Assembly (NCBI RefSeq): GCF_000688295.1
Contig: NZ_JHZF01000013.1
Location: forward strand, 1,054,001-1,118,000
Length of the DNA: 64,000 bases
From: Pseudooceanicola nanhaiensis DSM 18065
GTDB taxonomy: Bacteria > Pseudomonadota > Alphaproteobacteria > Rhodobacterales > Rhodobacteraceae
Reading direction: 5' to 3'
A program made the position numbers and the translations under genes. Below are positions 1,428 to 3,498 of the stretch, in pieces. The notes under the pieces were generated by a model. That model did no database searches. It had not been told where the DNA came from and saw only the letters and a program-made list of their open reading frames with translations. How positions within the stretch are numbered: the first letter of the stretch is position 1; each line of letters opens with the position of its first letter.

Positions 1428-1469
1428 TTGATCGAAATCAAGGCACGGGGCCGTCCGCGCGGCTAGACT
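1428..1469 (+). promoter_or_regulatory. Candidate FnrL/FNR-activated promoter
   Basis: TTGATCGAAATCAA at 1428-1441 is a perfect match to the FNR-family consensus TTGAT-N4-ATCAA. A -10-like TAGACT sits at 1464-1469. If transcription starts about seven bases after it, near 1476, the box centre (1434.5) is near -41.5, the spacing of class II FNR-activated promoters. The downstream genes are two DUF6455 proteins. The box is read directly; FnrL binding and the start site are inferred. Confidence 0.75.
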
Positions 1470-1494
1470 CCTCCTCGAACCTGTGGAGGTGCGG

Positions 1495-2136: not shown

Positions 2137-3498
<1,362 letters not shown>

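Follow-up and report, generated by a model that had tools for sequence, protein, structure and literature searches.

The locus described here raises the question of which regulator controls two small neighbouring genes of the DUF6455 family, a family without known function, and what this control implies for the process in which the encoded proteins take part. The genes lie near the beginning of the window, by which the whole stretch of 64,000 nucleotides that was analysed is meant. A first-pass annotation of this DNA had proposed that they are preceded by an exact FNR-type box at class II distance from a predicted transcription start, and that they are switched on by FnrL at low oxygen. The best reading of the evidence collected below is that DUF6455 would represent an overlooked FNR-activated family.

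The box and the predicted promoter of the DUF6455 genes

On the forward strand of the window, two genes at 1495-1740 (81 amino acids) and 1760-2011 (83 amino acids) code for proteins with the cysteine pattern CX2CX5C...CXN. Both were identified as DUF6455 by PF20056, with 63.3 and 70.2 bits over a cut-off of 23.7, in agreement with the first-pass annotation, and they are the only genes of the genome with a PF20056 match at an E-value of 0.001. Since they are spaced by 19 nucleotides, they probably form a single operon. The upstream neighbour on the same strand is a gene for an M48 peptidase (709-1413; PF01435), and the downstream neighbour on the reverse strand is rimO (2137-3498; TIGR01125, 534.7 bits). 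A conserved small open reading frame of 86 amino acids without a Pfam or NCBIfam match adjoins the M48 gene at 311-571 on the reverse strand.

The intergenic span from the stop codon of the M48 peptidase gene to the ATG at 1495 (1414-1494) contains the FNR-type box TTGATCGAAATCAA at 1428-1441 of the forward strand, centred at 1434.5. It matches TTGAT-N4-ATCAA with no mismatch, as had been claimed, and is the only perfect match in the 64-kb window; after shuffling, the window contained 0.01 perfect boxes on average, with one present in one of 100 shuffles. Boxes with at most one mismatch were found twice in the window, compared to 0.42 expected. The centre of the box is located 29.5 bases 5' of the first T of the -10 element TAGACT (1464-1469, forward strand), which places it at -41.5 if this T is numbered -12. 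The coordinates bear out the earlier placement of the box centre 41.5 bases before the transcription start at about 1476 (forward strand), a position predicted from the box together with the -10 element. A ribosome-binding site, GGAGGTG, follows at 1485-1491 of the same strand. A generic sigma-70 scan of the intergenic box region identified neither a promoter nor a -35 box, as should be the case for a promoter that depends on an activator and lacks a -35 element. Judged from the sequence, TTGATCGAAATCAA and TAGACT are highly likely to constitute a class II FNR-dependent promoter.

In the whole genome of 4.66 Mb, five perfect TTGAT-N4-ATCAA palindromes were identified, including the one at 1428-1441. 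One of them is located between hemA, coding for ALA synthase, and a divergent gene, and another one 5' of coxB; for R. sphaeroides, Table 2 of PMC2908626 gives hemA as activated and coxII as repressed by FnrL. A further perfect box precedes a small unnamed open reading frame of 82 amino acids (L001:1501-1816), which has no match in NCBIfam; here, TAGGGT is present at the same class II distance, as counted by eye. The remaining one was judged by eye to lie inside an ABC permease gene (L003:1501-1514) and is probably not a promoter.

The genome also encodes FnrL (L139; NCBIfam equivalog, 461 bits, cut-off 300). Its N-terminus, CGDCPIRHRAVC, carries the cluster cysteines, and a box with one mismatch is located directly 5' of its gene. 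A second gene of the Crp/Fnr type (L140), to which NCBIfam assigns no class, was identified about 18 kb from nosZ.

Recurrence of the box and of its spacing

By using a profile built from A1, DUF6455 genes were identified in 138 loci of the Rhodobacteraceae, and neighbouring copies, one to four genes per group, were grouped. From the resulting 136 groups, those with identical first proteins and L089, with its short upstream region, were dropped, which left 113 groups with distinct first proteins; these are mainly the best-scoring DUF6455 matches among the matches listed, and some come from related species, so that not all are independent. When 300 nucleotides upstream were searched, a box within two mismatches was found 50-113 nucleotides 5' of the start in 111 of the 113 groups, with 35 perfect boxes, 47 with one mismatch and 29 with two. 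The two groups without a box are made up of additional copies in Lutimaribacter that have diverged (L074, L080). In contrast, a box was present in the 300 nucleotides upstream of only 73 of 708 control genes from the same loci (none perfect, six with one and 67 with two mismatches), the controls being open reading frames of at least 100 amino acids from rough longest-ORF calls, some of which are not real genes. Conservation of the box before orthologues, set in advance as a test of the proposal, was thereby demonstrated, and the class II spacing was found to recur with it.

After alignment of the 111 upstream regions on the box, the preceding flank from -36.5 to -7.5 was shown to contain at most 0.12 bits per position, which rules out general conservation of the upstream DNA in place of a specific site. 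Within the box, the four positions at either end contain 1.7 to 2.4 bits, values that are selected by the match and are meaningful only against the control; the -10 element and a G at +8.5 are unselected. This G, the second base after the box, is present in 94% of the sequences. The unselected signal 3' of the box centre consists of T at +29.5, A at +30.5 and T at +34.5, corresponding to a -10 hexamer with its first base at -12 if the box centre is at -41.5, and TANNNT recurs in homologues at exactly the offset of TAGACT in the window. A TA was found at the class II offset, allowing one base on either side, in 72 of the 111 regions, versus zero to four at each other offset scanned. Since both the box and the spacing recur before orthologues, the box is more than a product of chance. 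A box borrowed from a neighbouring gene is unlikely, because the site is located between the stop codon of the M48 gene on the same strand and the first DUF6455 gene, and because homologues with a different gene neighbourhood are also preceded by a box.

A low-scoring set of Rhodobacteraceae homologues was derived from 30 genomes, with 30 of 34 matches taken as loci and 29 domains placed (L215 was without a domain). In the 400 nucleotides before the domain, 20 of the 29 had a box within two mismatches and 13 a box within one, and no box within two mismatches was found in this range for L187, L190, L193, L195, L198, L199, L204, L208 and L212. By eye, L195, L204, L208 and the second groups in L074 and L080 are look-alikes, all of them without a box; L029 and L206, which resemble this group, do have a box.

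Outside the Rhodobacteraceae, DUF6455 was identified in 16 of 289 genomes of a class sample and in 38 of 396 genomes of a phylum sample. The 14 hits of the class sample outside the family included eight with at most one mismatch and one with two (L162), while no box within two mismatches was found for L156, L157, L159, L160 and L165 (500 and 400 nucleotides searched). L165, which is under the Pfam cut-off and does not have the conserved cysteines, is a doubtful member. In L157 (G615), the DUF6455 domain forms the C-terminal end of a long reading frame, glycosyltransferase-like by eye, with no FNR box nearby. Among the 13 further hits of the phylum sample, which are not fully independent because three belong to genus g575 and two to genus g590, 12 had at most one mismatch and one had two (450 nucleotides). 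Perfect boxes were present for the three hits outside the class (G884, G939, G1014). Altogether, 20 of the 27 hits outside the family, three of which are below the Pfam cut-off (L165, L169, G939), have a box with at most one mismatch. For other genes of the same loci, the corresponding number was 18 of 253 (450 nucleotides), and some of these 18 owe their box to a divergently oriented DUF6455 gene. For 19 of 22 non-family boxes, NANNNT was found no more than one base away from the class II offset, 12 of them at the exact offset, compared to zero to three at any other single offset. In the proposed reading, FNR control would extend beyond the window genome to the greater part of the DUF6455 family in the sampled phylum.

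The usual site of DUF6455 genes in the Rhodobacteraceae extends from the M48 peptidase gene (41 of 57 loci) to rimO (31 of 57). In these 57 loci, a DUF167 gene was found nearby in 20 and a relative of the small open reading frame at 311-571 of the window in 42; due to the rough gene calls, all these counts are lower bounds. The neighbouring genes of these loci gave no hint of a function. At a locus outside the class (L248:767-8381), DUF6455 is part of a cluster with fnr, a DsbD-like gene, a divergent copper ATPase gene, ompW, ccoN and ccoO, and a perfect box is located between DUF6455 and the copper ATPase gene. Within the class, L255 contains genes for a universal stress protein, a cation ATPase, DUF6455 and a CBS-domain protein. 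These two neighbourhoods look like low-oxygen islands; the remaining distant loci have ordinary neighbours.

Cysteines, fold and fusion partners of DUF6455

Among 240 distinct DUF6455 domains, 212 contain the complete CX2CX5C...CXN pattern, 13 contain only CX2CX5C, and 15 contain neither. C40, C43, C49 and C70 are invariant among 23 sequences; in a set of 72 sequences, three of the cysteines are invariant and the fourth is present at 90% or more. The CX2CX5C spacing is that of the N-terminus of FnrL. In some third copies (L072:8270-8545, L092:8267-8530) the second cysteine is shifted, which may reflect a changed or lost metal site.

An AlphaFold2 model of the second window protein, based on 72 sequences, is all helical, with a pLDDT of 90 and a pTM of 0.82. 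A Foldseek search of the PDB with this model gave no match (two returns, with E-values of 7 or more), and a sequence search for a homologue of solved structure gave only weak matches, the best with an E-value of 0.009 to thioredoxin reductase. For the two window proteins, DUF6455 was the only Pfam match at an E-value of 0.001, NCBIfam gave no match, and neither a WhiB nor an FNR profile matched. Since the model is without a structural match in the PDB, it is the cysteine spacing that points to a metal centre.

Two-domain proteins consisting of DUF1127 and DUF6455 were identified at L207:1351-1698 and L213:1489-1836, both domains being over the Pfam cut-off, and the two genes are preceded by boxes with two mismatches. 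L211 has a DUF1127 match below the cut-off and L209 and L210 have none, and all five proteins align. L209, L210 and L211 also resemble the two fusions, and their boxes are better. Members of DUF1127 described in PMC10253847 and PMC12501420 bind RNA or partner proteins. A hydrophobic N-terminal stretch, membrane-anchor-like by eye, is present in L156, L158, L164 and L248.

From these features, DUF6455 proteins would be small helical four-cysteine proteins, and it seems rather probable that they hold a metal centre, either [4Fe-4S] or Zn, by CX2CX5C...C. For the centre being [4Fe-4S] rather than Zn, the chances may be put at somewhat less than even. The arrangement CX2CX5C plus a distant cysteine is commoner in [4Fe-4S] proteins like FNR and WhiB than in zinc ribbons. 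This argues against a structural zinc, by which DUF6455 would become a plain protein- or RNA-binding adaptor without redox sensing; such a site, which is compatible with the FNR-dependent promoter, must nevertheless be taken as a serious possibility, if not quite an even one, in view of the four conserved cysteines in a helical fold of 80 residues and of the fusion to DUF1127, a family some members of which bind RNA or proteins (described in PMC10253847 and PMC12501420).

As a tentative suggestion from the fusion partners, DUF6455 proteins might be redox- or iron-sulphur-dependent adaptors which tune the low-oxygen program, probably via RNA or protein partners. A more far-reaching idea, which we consider speculative and rather unlikely, is that they could form a second oxygen- or NO-sensing layer made by FNR: small proteins with an iron-sulphur cluster and with cysteines spaced as in FNR would be produced at low oxygen and, when oxygen or NO returns, would lose the cluster and change their RNA or protein partners, either directly or via fused DUF1127 domains or membrane anchors.

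FnrL as the probable activator and comparison to known systems

In a sample of 395 Rhodobacteraceae genomes, DUF6455 was present in 239. Among the 347 genomes that had a strong FnrL match (E-value below 1e-60, a limit chosen after the list had been seen), it was found in 237, and in two of the 48 genomes without one (p about 1e-18); with respect to nosZ, it was present in 84 of 100 genomes over the cut-off versus 155 of 295 without (p about 1e-8). The counts come from lists compiled by hand, and both p-values exaggerate the significance, since the genomes are related. Within the FnrL-containing genomes, the numbers were 84 of 100 with nosZ and 153 of 247 without. The two exceptions with DUF6455 and without a strong FnrL match are G377, in which DUF6455 has no box (L208), and G308, in which a box is present (L186); the assembly of G308 consists of about 360 contigs, so that an FnrL gene may have been missed.

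Binding of FnrL to the box and activation of the DUF6455 operon by FnrL are very likely on these grounds. However, we only infer that FnrL is the sole activator, since FNR, FixK and Dnr have a common target sequence according to PMC2908626 and the genome contains a second Crp/Fnr-type gene. The box might be read mainly by such a regulator of the NO-responsive Dnr/NnrR type, in which case DUF6455 would belong to denitrification and not to general oxygen limitation. The presence of nosZ with L140 in its vicinity, the shared target and the enrichment of DUF6455 with nosZ, also among genomes with FnrL, are consistent with this explanation; it is nonetheless unlikely, because no nosZ exceeds the cut-off in 155 of the 239 genomes with DUF6455, the co-occurrence with FnrL is tighter, with its two exceptions, one copy outside the class is part of a cbb3 oxidase cluster beside fnr, and L140 was not identified as Dnr by NCBIfam. 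Repression by FnrL at 1428-1441, as reported for R. sphaeroides cox genes, of which coxII is repressed (PMC2908626, Table 2), might be considered in view of the perfect box before coxB in the same genome, but is very improbable, since a box at -41.5 from a recurring -10 element with no -35 found is the layout of FNR activation. A functionless chance palindrome is hardly credible: single boxes with two mismatches occur often, as in 67 of 708 control genes, but a perfect box is rare, and the occurrence of a box within two mismatches in 111 of 113 groups versus 73 of 708 controls, with a -10 element at a fixed distance amid upstream DNA that is not conserved otherwise, rules out a chance origin for the family.

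With FnrL as the activator, the following sequence of events is proposed. When oxygen falls, FnrL would regain its [4Fe-4S] cluster and dimerise; the dimer would bind to 1428-1441 at -41.5 and touch RNA polymerase, and transcription of the two-gene DUF6455 operon would start near 1476. It is very probable that the DUF6455 family takes part in the response of bacteria to low oxygen.

The target TTGAT-N4-ATCAA is the same as that of the FnrL regulon in R. sphaeroides and R. capsulatus, as presented in PMC2908626, PMC4634722 and PMC4263372, and the FnrL targets hemA and coxII of R. sphaeroides (PMC2908626) have their counterparts in the perfect boxes at hemA and coxB of the window genome. DUF6455 is not named in the main-text portions of PMC2908626, PMC4634722, PMC5398030 and PMC4263372 covered here. 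PMC2908626 contains a core FNR ortholog set, no. 2905, which is hypothetical and without an R. sphaeroides locus, and which might correspond to the DUF6455 family. RSP_2573, a hypothetical R. sphaeroides gene, is given as FnrL-bound and activated in PMC2908626 and PMC4263372; a fingerprint search for it as a DUF6455 member in two candidate genomes found nothing. In the literature searched, PF20056 was not mentioned, and the only mention of DUF6455, in the parts of the sources covered, was in an Azospirillum ethylene-response table, in which a dimethyl sulfoxide reductase anchor subunit is included as well. As far as seen in these sources, an FNR target is of a known kind, and DUF6455 as a member is undescribed.

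The FNR regulon of the Rhodobacteraceae is thus suggested to have a conserved nameless member, and a family without known function, which is present in 239 of 395 genomes, gains a strong assignment to the low-oxygen response.

Compared to the DUF1127 small proteins, like CcaF1 and YjiS, some DUF6455 members have an N-terminal DUF1127 domain (L207, L213), whereas the two window proteins are without a DUF1127 match in Pfam. WhiB and FNR have the motif CX2CX5C plus one further cysteine, and WhiB proteins are small. DUF6455 resembles these [4Fe-4S] sensors in the CX2CX5C motif with an extra cysteine, and WhiB also in the small size; it differs in the C-terminal position of the fourth cysteine, and the window proteins have no match to the profiles of either and no PDB fold match. 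In class II promoters of E. coli FNR, the box is located at -41.5 and is followed by a -10 element, with no good -35. The predicted DUF6455 promoter is alike in all three respects, but the DUF6455 promoters are distinguished by their GC-rich context, by a -10 element of the form TANNNT and by the G at +8.5, with its frequency of 94%.
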